Source of the DNA: Rhodobiaceae bacterium
GTDB lineage: Bacteria; Pseudomonadota; Alphaproteobacteria; Parvibaculales; Parvibaculaceae
Direction: 5' to 3'
NCBI GenBank assembly: GCA_003330885.1
Contig: CP030277.1
Coordinates: 62,001-126,000 of the forward strand
Length of the DNA stretch: 64,000 nucleotides
Both the position numbers and the translations under genes were made by a program. The notes under the pieces were generated by a model. The model was not told the DNA's origin and made no database searches. It was given only the letters and a program-made list of their open reading frames with translations. Shown piece by piece: positions 30,968 to 57,851 of the stretch; the stretch's first letter is position 1, and every line of letters begins with the position of its first letter.

Positions 30968-32188
30968 ATGACCAAGTTTCCAGAAGGCTTTATCTGGGGC
31001 ACCGCGACCGCGGCACATCAGGTTGAAGGAAACAACACCTCCAACGACTTCTGGTTGATGGAGCACACCGAGCCGACAATGTTCAAAGAGCCGTCGGGAG
31101 ATGCCTGTGATCAATTCCATCTCTACGAGCAGGATGTGCGACTTCTAAAAGAGCTTGGTTTCAACGCTTATCGTTTTTCTGTTGAGTGGGCGCGGGTGGA
31201 ACCTGAAAAGGGCGAGATTTCGAACGCGGCTCTTGAGCATTATCGGCGCATGACCGCGTTTGTGAGAGAGCAAGGGCTTACGCCCATTGTGACGCTTCAC
31301 CACTTCACATCGCCTCTATGGTTTGCGCGCGAAGGTGGTTTTGCCTCAGAAGACGGGCCGGCCCATTTCGCAAACTATGCGGGCATCATGGCGGATGTGT
31401 TGGGGGACAATTGGGGGCAGGTCTGCACCATCAATGAAATCAACATTCCCATGCGCTTCTTTCATGACGGAATGCTGGGTGATCAATCACGTCTCGCGCC
31501 GTTTCTTGAAGCAGCGCAGAAGCGCTGCGGGTCAGATGCTTTCTCTTCGTTCTTCATTGGCGATATTGCAGGTGCTGCAGAAGGCATGAAAAAGGGGCAC
31601 CGTCTCGCGGTTGACGCAATTCGTGCGAGAGCGCCGGAAACCCCAGTGGGCGTTACCCTTGCCATTCAGGACGAACAGGCGATTGAGGGCGGTGAAGCAT
31701 TGCGGGATGCGGCCCGCGCTCGCTGCATTGATGCGTTTCTCGACATCACCAAGGGCGATGATTTTGTCGGCGTTCAGACTTACTCCCGATCCATCTATGG
31801 GCCGGACGGGAAGCTCAAGGTGCCCGACGAAGTCGAGACCACACAGATGGGGTATGAGTTTTATCCAGAAGCGCTCGAAGCAACCATTCGCTACACGGCC
31901 AACTATACCGGTCTGCCAATCATCGTGACTGAGAGCGGCATTGGGACTGAAGATGACAGCAGGCGTCGCGCCTATGTGGAGACTGCGCTCCGAGGTGTCC
32001 AGAACTGCCTCGCCGACGGCATCGATGTCCAAGGCTATTGCTACTGGTCCATGCTCGATAATTTCGAATGGATGTTGGGCTATAAGCCAACCTTCGGTCT
32101 GATCGCTGTTGACCGCATCACCCAGACACGGACCGTGAAGCCGAGTGCTCAATGGTTGGGCGCGATTGCAAAAGCCAATGCGATTTAG
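30968..32188 (+). CDS. glycoside hydrolase family 1 (beta-glucosidase/beta-galactosidase type)
   Basis: A 406-residue GH1 protein, shorter than the usual 440-480. The N-terminal signature FPEGFIWGTATAAHQVEGNN is clear. The acid/base Glu sits in TINEINIPM, where the family usually has T-x-N-E-P, and the nucleophile is in IIVTESGIGTED where I/V-T-E-N-G is usual. YCYWSMLDNFEWMLGYKPTFGLIAVD is standard. It lacks a signal peptide and acts in the cytoplasm. The altered motif neighbours (Pro to Ile, Asn to Ser) could change substrate choice. A GGGGAGGGG site precedes ATG 30968. Confidence 0.92.
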   Translation: MTKFPEGFIWGTATAAHQVEGNNTSNDFWLMEHTEPTMFKEPSGDACDQFHLYEQDVRLLKELGFNAYRFSVEWARVEPEKGEISNAALEHYRRMTAFVREQGLTPIVTLHHFTSPLWFAREGGFASEDGPAHFANYAGIMADVLGDNWGQVCTINEINIPMRFFHDGMLGDQSRLAPFLEAAQKRCGSDAFSSFFIGDIAGAAEGMKKGHRLAVDAIRARAPETPVGVTLAIQDEQAIEGGEALRDAARARCIDAFLDITKGDDFVGVQTYSRSIYGPDGKLKVPDEVETTQMGYEFYPEALEATIRYTANYTGLPIIVTESGIGTEDDSRRRAYVETALRGVQNCLADGIDVQGYCYWSMLDNFEWMLGYKPTFGLIAVDRITQTRTVKPSAQWLGAIAKANAI

Positions 32189-32450
32189 AAACTAAAAGCG
32201 CGTGCCATTGACTCGAGGAGGAGGGTCGAGCCAGGGCACGCGCTTGATGGCTCCTGTAGGCCTGCGAACGCACAGGAGCCGTGCGGGGGACCACCTCCCC
32301 GCAATTGGTCTAAGCGTTTTCAGGGTGAGGACAACGCCGCCACCGGTCTGAGGTTAGGACGAACGTGGATCCGGTTATCCGTCCGAAAACGCGACAAAAC
32401 AAGGTGACTAGAGCCCGGTTTTGAGACACTCAAAACCGAGACGGCTCTAG
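32189..32450 (-). ncRNA. candidate structured RNA with an anti-SD loop
   Basis: A run of stem-loops fills the 258-nt gap after the GH1 stop. Perfect pairings: 32196-32206 with 32235-32245 (11 bp), with an inner CTCGA/TCGAG stem and loop at 32217-32225; 32249-32257 with 32272-32280 (9 bp); 32282-32288 with 32297-32303 (7 bp); and 32408-32425 with 32429-32450 (18 bp, one 4-nt bulge). On the minus strand the apical loop reads CCCTCCTCC, like the 16S anti-Shine-Dalgarno end. The same hairpin is followed by TTTTAGTTT on that strand, so it could be the terminator of a small RNA or of a 3' UTR of the gene at 32447. The RNA call is inference; the pairings are directly seen. Confidence 0.5.
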
Positions 32451-32947
32451 TGAAGAAGCGGCATGCCATTCGTCCAGTTATGTTGGTGAACACTGAATAC
32501 CGGCTGTAATTGGACACCGGCCGAACTAAGAGCCAGGGCCAGATGTTGTCCCGACCGGAGCGCGGCATCTGAAAGGTTTGCGGGTACTGCTCCTTCTCCC
32601 ATAACCGAGGATTGAAACTGATCGACCAGGGTGAGAACACGGGCTTCGTCGGCCTGCAAAGACCGCCATTTGAAACATGGGGACCCAAGCGGTCGCCCGA
32701 ATTGCGCTTCAAGGTCTGTTAGAAAATCGAGAAAGCATGGCAACGCTTCTGGTGCATCAATCGCCGCAAATGCAGCTTCAAGCCTGATCCGGCCGCATCC
32801 GCCCTCTGACCCCTTGCGAGACGCTCGCGTCGCCCAAACCACAAATTGCTCCGCAAAGCTCAGTGTCGAAAGGTCGGTGCCTGGCTGGTACCGCGCTGGC
32901 GTGTGTTGCCCGCCGTCCGGTCGGGGAGAGAACTCCAGCACTTTCAT
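32447..32947 (-). CDS. hypothetical protein
   Basis: A 166-residue soluble protein without recognisable motif, signal or membrane segment. Composition is mixed, with aromatic-rich patches. AAGGAG lies 9 nt before ATG 32947, so translation is plausible, and the reading frame is clean on the strand opposite to GH1. The stop codon sits inside the 3' arm of the 18-bp stem of the structured region. RraA lies about 100 nt upstream on the same strand. No function proposed. Confidence 0.6.
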   Translation of the reverse strand: MKVLEFSPRPDGGQHTPARYQPGTDLSTLSFAEQFVVWATRASRKGSEGGCGRIRLEAAFAAIDAPEALPCFLDFLTDLEAQFGRPLGSPCFKWRSLQADEARVLTLVDQFQSSVMGEGAVPANLSDAALRSGQHLALALSSAGVQLQPVFSVHQHNWTNGMPLLH

Positions 32948-33046
32948 CTGTATGGCTCCTTGAGATCATGTTGTTCCATCTTAATAATGAAAGTAATAAT
33001 GAATCGCAAGAAGAAAATGCAGAAAAATGGGGGGGCTATCCGTGAG

Positions 33047-35063: not shown

Positions 35064-35113
35064 TCCAGTTTGCGTAAATCTGTCAAAGATGATAATGAAA
35101 ATTAATCGCAAAA

Positions 35114-36349
35114 ATGGATTCATCCGCCATGACAGAACAGACTTTGTCTGAACCCCAAGCTGCCGAAAGTCGGAAGATCGACACAGCGCTCATCATGACG
35201 GGGCTCATGGCATTTTCCATGGGTCAAACCATGATCTTTGCGATTGCTGGTCCTGCAACGCGGCTGATGGGTCTGGCGGAAACCGACCTCGGGCTCATCG
35301 TTTCACTCGCCGCAGTCACCTACACAATCGCTGTGCCGATATGGGGGCGAGTGAGCGACCGCATTGGCCGCGTGGCCGTAATCTATGTTGGTCTTATTGC
35401 TTATGCCGTTGCGACGGTTGCATTTGCCTATGTCATGCATCTGGGCATGACGGGTGTGCTGCTCGCGCCGATGAGTCTGATGCTGCTCATCGGCATTCGC
35501 ATGAGCCTCACGATTGGCTCTGGCGGTGTGCATCCCGGTGCCACTGCTTTCATGGCTGATATCACAGAGAGTTCAAAACGAGCTGCAGGTGTTGCCATGG
35601 TTGGCGCTGCTTTTGGGTTGGGGGCAATTGTGGGGCCTGTCCTGGCGGGGCTTCTCTCCTCGTTCGGACTTTTATTTCCGCTTTACGCTTCCGCCGTTGT
35701 TGCAGGGATCCTGGGAATTGTCATCGCAGTAAAAGTGCCTGAACCCCAGCGAGCAAGAACAGAAAATGCCGGTCAGATGCCCATGCTTGATCCACGCATC
35801 CGGTCGTTCTTTCTTCTGGCGCTCATCGCCTTCACAACTGTCGCCATCATTCAGCAGACAAGTGCTTTCTATTTCATGGATCGATTTGATCTCAGCCCTG
35901 AGGCGACCGCGAGAAATGTCGGAATCTCTGTTGGCTGCATGTCTCTGGCTATGATGGCGGTGCAGGCTGGACTGATCCAGGTGTTGAAAGTTTCTCCAAA
36001 GTCCATGTTGATTATGGGCTTTGCCGGCACGGCTGCCGGGCTGGCATTGGTTCTCTGGGCGCCATCGCTTGCATTTACCTATGCAGCCTATGCCGTCATT
36101 GGCATTGGTGGTGGGTTGATAAATCCCGGTTTGCTGGCAGGCGCATCGCTGCGGGTGGGGGCAGATCATCAAGGCGCAGTGGCCGGTGTCGTGGCGGCAG
36201 GCATGGGGGCTGGATACATAGTCGGGCCTCTTCTCGGGACCTACCTGTTCTCCCTCAATCTCTTCTACCCATTTACGTTTGCTGTGGTGCTCTCAATCGC
36301 CAGTGTCTTGGCAGCCCTATTCCTTAGAACGCAGCCAAACGCATCGTAA
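35114..36349 (+). CDS. major facilitator superfamily transporter
   Basis: A 411-residue MFS protein with 12 predicted helices. The loop 2-3 motif is VPIWGRVSDRIGRVAVI (G-R-x-S-D-R-x-G-R), typical of drug:H+ antiporters and small-molecule exporters; the second half has GGGLINPGLLAGASL. Start is uncertain: ATG 35114 and ATG 35129 are both in frame without a strong ribosome site. It lies 50 nt after the GPH symporter and might be cotranscribed. Substrate unknown. Confidence 0.85.
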   Translation: MDSSAMTEQTLSEPQAAESRKIDTALIMTGLMAFSMGQTMIFAIAGPATRLMGLAETDLGLIVSLAAVTYTIAVPIWGRVSDRIGRVAVIYVGLIAYAVATVAFAYVMHLGMTGVLLAPMSLMLLIGIRMSLTIGSGGVHPGATAFMADITESSKRAAGVAMVGAAFGLGAIVGPVLAGLLSSFGLLFPLYASAVVAGILGIVIAVKVPEPQRARTENAGQMPMLDPRIRSFFLLALIAFTTVAIIQQTSAFYFMDRFDLSPEATARNVGISVGCMSLAMMAVQAGLIQVLKVSPKSMLIMGFAGTAAGLALVLWAPSLAFTYAAYAVIGIGGGLINPGLLAGASLRVGADHQGAVAGVVAAGMGAGYIVGPLLGTYLFSLNLFYPFTFAVVLSIASVLAALFLRTQPNAS

Positions 36350-39501: not shown

Positions 39502-40797
39502 TTATTCAGCAGCGTCTGTCTTGAACTGCGCGCTCTCAGTTGACTCACCCAGAGCCGTCGTTGAGCTTTCGCCGCCAGCAGCAGCAACAGAGACCATGTC
39601 GAAATAGCCTGTGCCAACTTCACGCTGGTGACGTGTAGCTGTGTAGCCGTCGCCTTCAGCAGCAAATTCAGCTTGCTGCAGTTCGGAGTAAGCAGCCATG
39701 CCACGATCACGGTAGCCCGATGCGAGCTGGAACATGCCGTAGTTGAGCTGGTGGAAGCCAGCAAGCGTAACGAACTGGTACTTGTAGCCCATTGCTGCGA
39801 TTTCACGCTGGAACTTGGCAATTGTGTCCTTGTCCAGGTTGGCTTCCCAGTTGAAGGAAGGCGAGCAGTTGTAAGCAAGCATCTGGTTAGGATGGTCTTT
39901 GCGAACTTCTTCAGCGAAACGCTTCGCGTCGTCGAGGTTCGGTACAGAAGTTTCCCACCACAAGAGGTCAGCATATTTAGCGAACTGCTTGCCACGAGCG
40001 ATACAGTGATCAACGCCTGTGCCGTCTTTCAGACGATAGAAGCCTTCAGGTGTCCGGCCAGCATCGAAGTCGATGAACTCGTGATCCCGCTCGTCAACGT
40101 CAGACGTGATGAGCTTCGCAGATTCAGCATCTGTCCGAGCCATGATGAGCGTTGGTGTGCCCATAACGTCTGCGGCAAGACGCGCAGCGTTCAGGTTACG
40201 CTCGTGCGCTTTTGTTGGGATAAGAACTTTACCGCCCAAGTGACCGCACTTCTTCTCAGAAGCAAGCTGGTCTTCGTAGTGGACGCCAGCAGCGCCAGCT
40301 TCGATGTAAGCTTTCATGATTTCGAAGCAGTTCAGAGGTCCGCCGAAACCAGCTTCCGCATCAGCAACGATAGGAACGAACCAATCGCGTGTTGCGCCAC
40401 CTTCAGAATGCTCGATCTGGTCGGCACGCTGAAGCGTCTTGTTGATGCGTTTGGCAAGCTCAGGGCCAGCGTTCGCAGGGTAGAGGCTCTGGTCAGGGTA
40501 CATAGCAGAAGCTGTGTTGGCATCTGCAGCAACCTGCCAACCCGACAGGTAGATTGCTTTCAGACCAGCGCGAACCATCTGCATGGCCTGGTTGCCGGAA
40601 AGAGCGCCAAGTGAGTGGATGTAGTCTTCGGTGTGAAGACCTTCCCACAGCTTGTTGGCGCCGCGTGTTGCGAGCGTGTGCTCGATTGGGAAAGAACCGC
40701 GAAGCTTTTCAACTTCTTCAACTGTGTAGTTGCGCTCGACGTCGTCGAAGCGACCAGCTGGGGCGCTAGGGATAATATCGTAGAACGTTTTGCTCAT
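39502..40797 (-). CDS. aceA: isocitrate lyase
   Basis: A 431-residue enzyme that splits isocitrate into glyoxylate and succinate, opening the glyoxylate shunt for growth on acetate and fatty acids. The signature [12 protein letters not shown] (about 191-202) carries the catalytic Cys of K-K-C-G-H. Other clear regions are [35 protein letters not shown] and [16 protein letters not shown]. It is downstream of aceB on the same strand with 60 nt between and its own strong terminator. Codon use looks more biased than neighbours, as expected for a highly expressed gene. Confidence 0.97.
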
Positions 40798-40857
40798 AGC
40801 ATTGTCCTTTAGTTAGAGGTGACACTCAGTCGAGCTATCGGTTGAGTGGTAGTGCGA

Positions 40858-42483
40858 TTAATTCCCGCTTTTGACGAGAAGTTCATAGGCCGGAAGGGTG
40901 AGAAATTCCTCGCAATCCCGGGATGTTGCCATTTCGGCGAACATAGAGATCGCCTCGTCAAAATGGCCGGATGTCCAACGCTCTTCGCCGAGCGTTTCTT
41001 CAAGTTTCTTCATTTCATCGTCGAGAAGCGTTTCGAAGAGTTCTTTCGTAACCTTCTGCCCGTCAGCAAGATCAACTTCGTGATAGAGCCACTGCCAGAT
41101 CTGCGTGCGGCTGATTTCAGCTGTCGCGGCATCTTCCATGAGATTGTAAAGCGGCACGGCGCCCCGGCCACCAAGCCAGGCTTCAATGTACTGAACACCT
41201 ACACGGCAGCAATCGCGCAGGCCTTCTTCAGTACGCTCGCCTTTATGGGGCTCGATCATCTGCTTCTGAGCGATGTTCACATCCTGGCGCTGGCGGGCGA
41301 GCTGGTTGGTCTCAGGCAGTTTGCCGAAGATTTCACTCACCACATCGACCATGCCCGGGTGGGCAATCCATGTGCCGTCATGACCATTATTTGCTTCACG
41401 CTCTTTGTCTGCGCGGATTTTTGCAAAGGCTGCTTCATTGGCTGCATCGTCGCCCTTCACAGGGATCTGCGCTGCCATGCCGCCCATCGCGAATGCGCCG
41501 CGCTTGTGGCAGGTCTTGATGAGCAACAGGGAGTATGCGGACAGGAATGCGTCGCCCATGCCAACCTGCGCCCGGTCTGGCAGAATGTAGTTCGCATTTT
41601 TTCCAAGGCGCTTGATGTAGCTGAAAATGTAGTCCCAACGACCACAGTTCAGTCCGACAATATGGTCGCGCATTTCGTAGAGAATTTCGTCCATCTCAAA
41701 CGCTGCAGGCAGCGTTTCGATCAGGATCGTGCAGCGCGCGGTCCCAACAGGAAGGCCAAGCGCCTTTTCGGCATGTGTGAAGACATCATTCCACAAGCGC
41801 GCTTCCAGATGGCTTTCCATCTTCGGAAGGTAGAAGTAAGGACCCGTGCCATTGGCTTTGAGGTTTGCATGGCTATGAAAGAGATACATGCCAAAGTCGA
41901 ACATGCCGCCTGACATGTTCTGGCCATCAATTTTCAGATGCGCTTCTTCCAGATGCCAACCGCGAGGACGGACGATAAGAGTTGCCCGCTCACCATTTGG
42001 CAGGGCGTCATATGTCTTGCCATTGGTCTCGTCGGTGAAGCCGATGGTGCCCGCCCACAGATCCATAAGGTTGAGCTGACCGCCGATCATATTGTCCCAG
42101 GTCGGTGACGCGGCATCTTCAAAATCGGTCATGTAGGAGTTGGCGCCGGAATTCAGCGCATTAATAACCATCTTCCGGTTGTCGACAGGACCGGTGATTT
42201 CGATCCGGCGATCCAGCAGATCTTTTGGAATGGGAGAGATTTTCCAGTCGCCATCCCGCACTGATTGAGTTTCAGGCAGGAAGTCGGGCAGTTCACCGGC
42301 GTCGAACCGCTTTTGGCGTTCGGCACGGGCTTCCAGAAGCTCACGACGACGGCCGCCAAAATTCCGTTCCAGATCTGCGACAAAGGCCAAAGCCTCGTCG
42401 GTCAGAACGCGTTCGTATCCTGGCTTCATCGCGCCGACAATCTCGACGCCCTCAACGCTGGACTTCACCTGAGCCTGGCTCAT
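40858..42483 (-). CDS. aceB: malate synthase A
   Basis: A 541-residue malate synthase of isoform A, which condenses glyoxylate with acetyl-CoA to malate. Conserved stretches include TDFEDAASPTWDNMIGGQLNLMD (about 138-160), ARCTILIETLPAAFEMDEILYEMRDHIVGLNCGRWDYIFSYIKRL and GMAAQIPVKGDD. It forms an operon with aceA, transcribed away from the ScfR-type regulator at 42686. The 202-nt region between carries inverted repeats that are candidate regulatory sites. Confidence 0.96.
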   Translation of the reverse strand: MSQAQVKSSVEGVEIVGAMKPGYERVLTDEALAFVADLERNFGGRRRELLEARAERQKRFDAGELPDFLPETQSVRDGDWKISPIPKDLLDRRIEITGPVDNRKMVINALNSGANSYMTDFEDAASPTWDNMIGGQLNLMDLWAGTIGFTDETNGKTYDALPNGERATLIVRPRGWHLEEAHLKIDGQNMSGGMFDFGMYLFHSHANLKANGTGPYFYLPKMESHLEARLWNDVFTHAEKALGLPVGTARCTILIETLPAAFEMDEILYEMRDHIVGLNCGRWDYIFSYIKRLGKNANYILPDRAQVGMGDAFLSAYSLLLIKTCHKRGAFAMGGMAAQIPVKGDDAANEAAFAKIRADKEREANNGHDGTWIAHPGMVDVVSEIFGKLPETNQLARQRQDVNIAQKQMIEPHKGERTEEGLRDCCRVGVQYIEAWLGGRGAVPLYNLMEDAATAEISRTQIWQWLYHEVDLADGQKVTKELFETLLDDEMKKLEETLGEERWTSGHFDEAISMFAEMATSRDCEEFLTLPAYELLVKSGN

Positions 42484-42609
42484 GGTCTCAAACCTCCGCT
42501 GTCACTGGGTGGCCCCTGATCGTAGCGTCAGGGTGCTTTGAGCGGGGTCATACAACTCGCACAATAGAATGTCCAACGATTCATAAGTCATTGAAAATAT
42601 TAAAGTAAA

Positions 42610-42664
42610 AATCTTTACACGATTCCTGTGAGATTCTGTAGTAAATGTAAATCTTGTAAAGATT
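42610..42664. promoter_or_regulatory. inverted repeats between aceB and the ScfR-type regulator
   Basis: AATCTTTACA at 42610-42619 is the inverse of TGTAAAGATT at 42655-42664. A tighter dyad AATCTT-GTA-AAGATT lies at 42650-42664, 22 nt upstream of the regulator ATG. The stretch is A/T-rich against a G+C-rich background. These are good candidates for binding by the neighbouring XRE regulator (auto- and aceBA control), but no binding motif is established for this protein. Confidence 0.5.
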
Positions 42665-42685
42665 GGCAACGGGAAAGCGCGAAAA

Positions 42686-44143
42686 ATGGCGTATGAGAAG
42701 CAGGACAAGAAGGTCTTTGCAGGCCCCCGCGTGCGGCGCCTCCGAAGGGATAAAGGCCTGACCCAGGCCCGCATGGCAGAGGAACTTTCCATCTCCGCCA
42801 GCTATCTGAACCTGATTGAGCGCAATCAAAGGCCGGTTTCTGCCCAGATTCTGCTCCGGATGGCAGATGTCTTCGATGTAGATCTGCGCTCGCTGGGGGG
42901 AGATGAGGAGGCGAGGGCCCTCTCAGCGCTGAAAGAGGTGTTCTCCGACCCGCTCATGCGGGACACCGGCCTTTCCGACCAGGACCTGAAAGAGGTGGCT
43001 GACGCGACGCCGGCGATCGCTGATGCGGTTGCGACCCTGTATCGCTCCTATCAGGAGGCCGTCGAGGCGAGTTCAATGCTGGCAGAGCGTCTGGCAGATC
43101 GGGATGACGACACCACCTCTCAAGGGACGGGCCAGCCCATTGAAGAGGTCCGCGATTTCATCAATGCCCACACCAATCATTTTCCAGAGCTTGATGAGGC
43201 AGCCGAAGACCTTTACGCAAACGCGAAATTGTCGGCGGATGAGCCTTATGTCGCACTGCGCGATTATTTACGCGATACCCATGGTGTGAGCACACGCGTC
43301 GTTCCGTCTGATTTCATGTCGGGTGAACTCCGTCGCTACGACCGACACCGCCAGACCATGTTCCTGTCTGAATTGCTCGATCAGCCCGGCCGGTCCTTTC
43401 AGCTTGCCTACCAGGTTGGCTTTCTTGAACAGGCCAAAACCCTGGAGCAGTTGGTTGAACAATCAGGGTTGAGTGATGATGAGGCGCGACGGCTGCTGCG
43501 CATCGCCCTTGCCAACTATTTCGCAGCGGCTCTGCTCATGCCCTATGACGCGTTTTTTCGTACAGCGCAGGAAACCAAATATGACATTCGATTGCTGGGG
43601 AGACGCTTTGGCACAAGCTTCGAGCAGGTGTGCCATCGGCTGACGACGTTGCAGCGAGCTGGCGCGAGAGGGATTCCCTTCTTCCTCATCCGTGTCGACA
43701 ATGCAGGCAATGTCTCAAAACGCTTTTCGGCAGCAGGGTTTCACTTTGCGCGCTTCGGCGGAACCTGTCCGCGCTGGAATGTGCACGATGCGTTTCGCGT
43801 GCCAGGGCAAGTCTATACGCAGGTCGTCGCCATGGACGATGGCACCCGCTATTTCTCCATCGCCAGAACTGTAAGCCGTGCCGGATCTGGCATTGGCGTG
43901 CCGGGAGACCAATATGTGGTGGGCCTTGGGTGCGATATTTCACATGCGCGTGATTTCGCCTATTCACTAGGGCATGATCTGGACAATGAAGAAGCCGCGA
44001 CGCCCATTGGGGTCAATTGCCGCCTCTGTGAGCGGCTGGACTGCTCTCAACGAGCCTTTCCGCCTCTTAAACGCAAGCTGCATGTCGAAGAACATGTGCG
44101 CGGCGTATCTGCTTTCGGCGCGCCCTCAGATGGAGCGGACTAA
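42686..44143 (+). CDS. XRE-family transcriptional regulator, short-chain fatty-acyl type (ScfR/RamB-like)
   Basis: A 485-residue regulator. An XRE helix-turn-helix (RVRRLRRDKGLTQARMAEELSISASYLNLIERNQRPVSAQ, about 12-50) is followed by an IrrE/DUF955-type domain (about 170-330) and a C-terminal DUF2083 region with a Cys cluster (NCRLCERLDCSQRAF, about 450-465). This architecture is that of RamB of corynebacteria and ScfR proteins, which control acetate, propionate and glyoxylate-shunt genes in response to acyl-CoA levels. Divergence from aceBA strongly suggests it regulates them. The Cys cluster may bind a metal or sense redox state. Confidence 0.9.
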   Translation: MAYEKQDKKVFAGPRVRRLRRDKGLTQARMAEELSISASYLNLIERNQRPVSAQILLRMADVFDVDLRSLGGDEEARALSALKEVFSDPLMRDTGLSDQDLKEVADATPAIADAVATLYRSYQEAVEASSMLAERLADRDDDTTSQGTGQPIEEVRDFINAHTNHFPELDEAAEDLYANAKLSADEPYVALRDYLRDTHGVSTRVVPSDFMSGELRRYDRHRQTMFLSELLDQPGRSFQLAYQVGFLEQAKTLEQLVEQSGLSDDEARRLLRIALANYFAAALLMPYDAFFRTAQETKYDIRLLGRRFGTSFEQVCHRLTTLQRAGARGIPFFLIRVDNAGNVSKRFSAAGFHFARFGGTCPRWNVHDAFRVPGQVYTQVVAMDDGTRYFSIARTVSRAGSGIGVPGDQYVVGLGCDISHARDFAYSLGHDLDNEEAATPIGVNCRLCERLDCSQRAFPPLKRKLHVEEHVRGVSAFGAPSDGAD

Positions 44144-50977: not shown

Positions 50978-51027
50978 GTTCCCAGAGCGTTACCAGGTGA
51001 AGTGTTGTGACTTCACCGTCCGGGAAC
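50978..51027 (+). promoter_or_regulatory. structured leader upstream of hisZ
   Basis: GGTGAAGT at 50996-51003 pairs with ACTTCACC at 51010-51017 over a 6-nt loop, and an outer GTTCCC (50978-50983) matches GGGAAC (51022-51027). The element sits in the 168-nt hisS-hisZ gap, 25 nt before the first possible start of hisZ. There is no run of His codons, so it is not a classic attenuator; it could be a processing site or a regulatory leader. Confidence 0.4.
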
Positions 51028-51052
51028 GCGCTAAAGAAGGTTCCAGGGAACG

Positions 51053-57413: not shown

Positions 57414-57851
57414 TCTGTTTCTCCGTTTCAAAGCCAAAATGTCAAACGCCCGGCCAGCTCTTCTTTAAAAGGCTGCCCAGGCGAACGGCTTTGAAATCGG
57501 CTTCCGCGCTCCCTTGTGGTTGTTCACTCTTCAATCAGAGTGGTTTCCCACATCCATCTCCATACAAAGGAAGAGGACTTTCGCCAGTCACGCGGAATAT
57601 ATGGACCAGTCGGGTCACTGGGAGAAAACCACGTCATACGGGTAGCCGCAACTATTTCGTGGACCACGCGGGTAACCATAATGCTGTGAAATTGTAGTTT
57701 TTCCGTCACACCGGACAGCAGACACGCGAGACGGAACAAAAGCCATCTGGCACACAAGAGAAAACCGCTTTACGAATAGTACAATATGAATTGATCGTTT
57801 CGTCTTCAGGAAGATCATCTACGTTTTCATTGGTTTTGGGGGGAACTTACC
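57414..57851. other. 438-nt intergenic region without a gene
   Basis: No convincing coding frame or tRNA is seen. It holds two related 9-10 nt direct repeats (ACGGGTAGCC at about 57639 and GCGGGTAACC at about 57668), each after a C-A-C/C-A-T segment. The rest gives the divergent promoter area for glyA and the outer-membrane protein. A TACAAT at 57780-57785 could be a -10 box, but its -35 is not obvious. A GGGGGG ribosome site precedes the next gene. Confidence 0.6.

Follow-up and report, generated by a model that had tools for sequence, protein, structure and literature searches.

A conserved three-hairpin RNA element, a candidate anti-Shine-Dalgarno RNA in the 3' UTR of an alphaproteobacterial gene, and an inserted palindromic repeat of near-uniform orientation

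Several described systems combine structured small RNAs with C-rich loops, upstream protein genes or iron control. In the αr14 RNAs of Alphaproteobacteria, each of three hairpins exposes an unpaired CCUCCUCCC motif (PMC10746234). The related CcsR RNAs share a transcript with a protein gene that lies upstream of them (PMC10746234, PMC10253847) and are linked to a short DUF1127 gene (PMC10253847). Small RNAs derived from 3' UTRs have been described in Rhodobacter sphaeroides (PMC8625941), and Staphylococcus has a Fur-repressed iron-sparing small RNA, IsrR (PMC9410917). In Caulobacter crescentus iron starvation involves the small RNA RusT, and no small RNA is known in the Fur regulon of that organism (PMC11005374).

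The locus that we compare with these systems lies in the window, by which we mean the whole stretch of 64,000 nucleotides analyzed here. It is a gap between a GH1 glycosidase gene on the plus strand (30968..32188; Pfam PF00232), the end of which is also the end of the RNA described below, and a convergent gene for a 166-residue protein on the minus strand (32447..32947), which belongs to no Pfam family and has orthologues in 29 of 40 genomes of the family. A repeat listing of the window contained no inverted repeats, and the hairpins were therefore taken from fold calculations. By RNA energies the gap is densely folded on both strands: the fold of 32180-32465 has z = -5.3 on the plus strand and z = -6.7 on the minus strand, and none of 200 shuffles was equally stable, so that the hairpins of the original prediction exceed what chance would produce. 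The long minus-strand hairpin at 32196-32245, with the loop CCCTCCTCC at 32217-32225 and then TTTTAGTTT, is also as that prediction described it. However, the four hairpins do not form the one cluster that it proposed. When the gap is used as a DNA query against the host genome and its sisters, bases 1-116 match a single place per sister genome, while bases 124-262 match many places in every genome. The gap hairpins are two unrelated objects: a conserved RNA (part A), whose hairpins 1-3 (32196-32303) form a single-copy unit, and an inserted mobile repeat (part B). The extent first given to the element must be shortened correspondingly, as 32312-32450 is inserted repeat that is absent from three sister species.

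Part A is a 117-nt structured RNA element (32189..32305, minus strand), supported by a covariance model (CM R2), by pair changes and by conservation, which occupies the place of the 3' UTR of the 166-residue gene. Read along the minus strand, the order is stop codon, hairpin 3, hairpin 2, hairpin 1 and U-rich tail. Hairpin 3 (32282..32303, minus), GCGGGGAGGUGGUCCCCCGC with the loop AGGUGGUC, holds an SD-like GGAGG; in the six-species alignment it is invariant over 18 columns, and its outermost pair goes from U-A to G-C in G002. Hairpin 2 (32249..32280, minus) is variable in sequence, but both the alignment and the folds show the hairpin to be retained. Hairpin 1 (32196..32245, minus) has a long, terminator-like stem in which four pairs carry double changes, and its 9-nt loop CCCUCCUCC (32217..32225, minus) is an anti-Shine-Dalgarno (aSD) sequence whose CUCCUCC is kept in six of six species, although the stem has changed in G002. 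The U-rich tail (32187..32197, minus) reaches the stop codon of the GH1 gene. Because this T-run follows hairpin 1 on the minus strand only, any terminator here would belong to the 166-residue gene rather than to GH1. The tail is interrupted, reading UUUUAGUUU in the window and GCUACUUUUU in G002. The distance from the stop codon to hairpin 3 is 6 nt in G004-G006, 42 nt in G002 and about 141-144 nt in the two genomes where part B is inserted, G000 (the genome of the window) and G001. A kissing contact between the loops of hairpin 3 (AGGUGG) and hairpin 1 (CCUCCU), with five of six pairs when matched by eye, is conceivable.

The alignment comprises six orthologues, the sixth of which (G002) was located via the 166-residue protein. 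All six fold the same three minus-strand hairpins, and the consensus has 38 pairs, with 96.9% of the pair cells standard. The pairings covary in relatives, as the original prediction would have it: nine pairs show double, pair-keeping changes, a count reached by none of 500 shuffles, and slid controls are 36-50% paired, though the signal comes from only six sequences, five of them close, and largely from G002 and partly from G005. The direction of single changes indicates which strand is used. Among the pairs that are Watson-Crick in the consensus, the five close species show six independent single changes, all of which yield G.U when read on the minus strand and A.C when read on the plus, with no case of the reverse (one-sided chance 1/64); these six of six informative wobble changes favour the minus strand for the RNA. 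Part A is more conserved than both flanking coding sequences, i.e., the ends of the 166-residue gene and of GH1, in all 15 species pairs. For example, between G000 and G005 the identity is 88.0% for part A, 56.6% for the end of the 166-residue coding sequence and 76.7% for the end of GH1. Between G000 and G001 part A is 95% identical, with part B lying between the stop codon and part A in both.

CM R2 finds part A in six of seven congeneric genomes (the named congeners being MAGs labelled Rhodobiaceae or Alphaproteobacteria), in a single copy and always directly downstream of the orthologue of the 166-residue gene; in the seventh (G003) the corresponding place downstream of the orthologue (L046) is masked with N. 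The model has no match in the 33 genomes searched from the family's other genera, where the 166-residue orthologue is followed nearly immediately by a different gene, nor in 285 further genomes of the class, which were searched with stricter filters that may lose weak matches. The exact 20-mer of hairpin 3 occurs, among 84,980 genomes, in three congeneric MAGs and one planctomycete; nothing else of the element accompanies the planctomycete match, which appears fortuitous. Part A thus seems to have arisen within this genus. Rfam covariance models gave no match to part A on either strand, even at E <= 5. Over the whole window the sole Rfam match lies outside the gap, a ZMP/ZTP riboswitch on the minus strand at 57468-57601 (51.5 bits against a gathering score of 39). 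The window also holds a glyoxylate-shunt cluster at 39502-44143, with isocitrate lyase and malate synthase genes beside a short-chain fatty acyl-CoA regulator of the ScfR type.

Upstream of the 166-residue gene lies a Fur-like operator (32989..33009, minus) of the TTGCGANTCATTCTCATTTGC kind, conserved in the family in both position and sequence. Operators such as TTGCGAGTCATTCTCATTTGC are found 40-110 nt upstream of the 166-residue orthologues across the family, and in G018 (GCGAATGATTATCATTTGC) and G035 (GCAAATGATTATCAATTGC) they form near-perfect 9-1-9 palindromes of the Fur-box kind, a layout described for the Fur box (PMC9368920). The operator matrix was built from other genera's orthologues of this same gene, and independent support comes from the palindromic form and from a second site. 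This second Fur-like site (35091-35111, 23.2 bits) is situated just upstream of an MFS_1 transporter gene (35114-36349, plus). The copy upstream of the 166-residue gene is degenerate, scoring 22.0 bits against 25.4-36.4 for the training set, but in a matrix scan of 1.26 Mb the two best matches are the two window sites, the next scoring 18.2 bits; a stricter operator pattern matched the window's own site alone. We infer that Fur may bind at the operator of the 166-residue gene. Elsewhere in the same genome (L082:284-350, at about 1000284 of G000), two palindromes of the TTAGAA/TTCTAA type stand upstream of an ORF beginning MDGEGKCPFSG; we take the palindromes to resemble the Irr iron-control element, and the ORF is presumably KatG-like.

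Taken together with the operator, part A could be the structured 3' UTR, with an intrinsic terminator, of an iron-starvation mRNA and also act in trans as an aSD small RNA; this is the reading that we prefer, although we regard it as evenly poised. Specifically, iron starvation would derepress the Fur-like operator so that the host mRNA is made; this mRNA would end at hairpin 1 as an intrinsic terminator, with part A as its 3' UTR; part A, either released from the host mRNA or terminating it, would yield a small RNA; and the CCUCCUCC loop, being exposed, would base-pair with other mRNAs at extended Shine-Dalgarno sequences, so reducing their translation. The structure, strand, linkage, constant loop and operator come from comparison of genomes, and it is from these that transcription, iron control, processing and trans action of the loop are proposed. 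In six genomes part A sits between the stop codon and the terminator-like hairpin of a coding gene, the position of a 3'-UTR-derived small RNA. What was originally predicted, a small RNA with an anti-SD loop, keeps its minus-strand structure, terminator-like hairpin and conserved pairings, but as a stand-alone RNA it is less supported than the alternative offered with it, the 3' UTR of the 166-residue gene, given that the element begins 6 nt past the stop codon in three congeners. Shine-Dalgarno sequences of the GGAGGAG type are rare (5 of 737 sampled ORFs, too few for testing), and a fatty acid desaturase and a P450, each from a family of iron enzymes, account for two of the five. Iron-enzyme genes among these candidates may be taken as a lead, not as a test. 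Hairpin 3, the least variable part of the element, is left unexplained by the trans-acting model.

The main rival is a part A that acts only in cis, with the terminator and stabilizing hairpins shielding the 166-residue mRNA from exonucleases and the CCUCCUCC loop having no targets in trans. This is a realistic if somewhat doubtful alternative. It agrees with a single-copy element that directly adjoins the stop codon and has a terminator-like end, with the lack of evidence for an independent promoter, and with the 3' end of the host coding sequence being the least conserved part in most species pairs; terminator function alone could suffice for hairpin 1. Termination requires no fixed loop sequence, though, and CUCCUCC is invariant in six species while the stem pairs change. 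Part A has also stayed intact in G000 and G001 (95%) even though part B puts about 140 nt between it and the stop codon. The same persistence of a discrete 117-nt conserved block despite a 140-nt insertion would be expected of an independent small RNA gene with its own promoter within or after the 166-residue gene. We consider this unlikely, as the 6 nt between stop codon and hairpin 3 in three species would force the promoter into the end of the coding sequence, and that end is poorly conserved (56.6-87.3% identity to G000 among close species).

Two further explanations are much weaker. Three hairpins, a length of about 117 nt and one CCUCCUCC loop could suggest membership of the cuckoo (CcsR/αr14) family, and a likeness to rhizobial cuckoo RNAs had indeed been part of the original prediction. 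The likeness fades on inspection: the CCUCCUCCC motif is found in one of the three hairpins, the last, the element is restricted to one genus, the Rfam models are negative, and a search of the genome with PF06568 (DUF1127) gave no match, the neighbouring gene encoding instead the 166-aa protein without a Pfam family. Kinship was rejected on these grounds, and we hold membership to be very improbable. That all the hairpins are palindromic DNA repeats without any RNA role is true of part B, but for part A it is hardly credible at all, as the element is single-copy with compensatory changes and strand-specific wobble, and the explanation is false there if the alignment is right.

Part B (32312..32450, plus strand) is a palindromic dispersed repeat of about 139 nt with two stem-loops, 32313-32403 and 32408-32450. 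Alignment to the sister species shows it to be missing from G006, G004 and G005, where the junction is clean, and to be shared with G001. It lies precisely where the 166-residue gene has its stop codon, TAG in the window and in G001; the empty sites have TGA, TAA or TAG. A mobile dispersed repeat is characterized by many copies and by orthologous sites that are filled in some genomes and empty in others, and part B is a later insertion unrelated to part A. Its 55-nt core, with the consensus AGCATTTCCAGGATAAGTGG..CCGGTTATCCGTCCGGAAATGCGACAAAAC, was modelled as R1, which has at least 117 copies in G000 at E <= 0.01; the copy numbers are lower bounds, as 150 of 1785 first-look candidates were scored. 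A second core in the window (50986-51040, plus) has the same orientation. No other repeat of equal frequency was found in the sampled sequence. At L093:879-1119 (about 3.20 Mb in G000), four cores stand in tandem with a 62-base spacing, all on the plus strand. Rfam snoRNA matches on part B are weak, far under threshold, and were discarded. An origin from RAYT/REP elements was likewise rejected: the genome has no match to PF01797 (Y1 transposase), while control genomes gave matches.

The one-way orientation of part B is the strangest observation of this analysis and a clear statistical anomaly. Of the R1 copies scored in G000, the plus strand carries 112 and the minus strand five. Switches of the GC skew in sampled stretches place the origin near 3.17 Mb and the terminus near 1.06 Mb; plus and minus copies number 49:2 on one replichore and 63:3 on the other, with an overall p of about 2e-27. 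A separate cmsearch of sampled stretches of G000 gave 26 plus and 2 minus copies at 28 distinct places (the window and L097 overlap, and one place was listed twice), and the same for G006 gave 14:0. Among the matches listed, a single copy in G006 is on the minus strand and three copies in G001 are on the plus strand, and within each contig of the draft congeners, as of G023 and G032 (another genus), the listed copies all point the same way. A tool artefact is ruled out by the cmsearch on samples and by plain pattern counts. Orientation by gene direction was also rejected: the copies adjoin genes of both strands, so that transcription does not explain it. With somewhat less than even confidence we propose that insertion or retention of the family follows a single orientation all the way round the circular chromosome, whichever way the replication fork travels. 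Lagging-strand targeting of insertions and polar motifs such as KOPS and Chi flip at the origin and terminus, and no mechanism is known to us by which insertions would be aligned with the Watson or the Crick strand through both. The dull explanation is shared ancestry without inversions, but copies limited to a subset of species, such as the window copy, follow the same orientation. If the proposal is true, it would imply either a novel polarity of the whole chromosome or a mode of copying that preserves orientation; the pattern is not accounted for by replication-linked models, and existing genomes suffice for testing it.

Part B resembles REP/BIME and MITE-type repeats in being short, palindromic, mostly intergenic and multicopy, with precise empty sites. 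It differs from them in that no Y1 (RAYT-type) transposase gene was found in its genome and in the near-uniform orientation of copies on both replichores.

Confirmation would make part A an anti-SD RNA under Fur control, carried by an alphaproteobacterial protein gene in its 3' UTR; within that group, a direct Fur-regulon small RNA has been noted as missing in Caulobacter (PMC11005374). The analysis supplies exact coordinates and a mutable loop. RusT is an alphaproteobacterial iron-starvation small RNA, as part A may be, but it is encoded by a separate gene, is bound by Hfq and has no Fur box. The Rhodobacter sphaeroides 3'-UTR-derived RNAs share with part A a structured RNA between stop codon and terminator; their sequences are unrelated, and their processing is measured where that of part A is conjectural. 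The αr14/cuckoo RNAs (NfeR1 of Sinorhizobium meliloti, CcsR1-4 of Rhodobacter sphaeroides) are, like part A, about 115 nt long and alphaproteobacterial, with three hairpins and a CCUCCUCC anti-SD loop, and the CcsR RNAs also have an upstream protein gene. They have three aSD loops against one, the host gene of part A is not a DUF1127 gene, and part A has no Rfam match and is confined to one genus; part A may act like them, yet is not classed with them. The closest working analogue is IsrR, in which a Fur-type operator precedes hairpins leading to a Rho-independent terminator and a C-rich loop pairs with the Shine-Dalgarno sequence. IsrR is a stand-alone Firmicutes gene with three C-rich regions and no homology to part A, whose own response to iron is a prediction.
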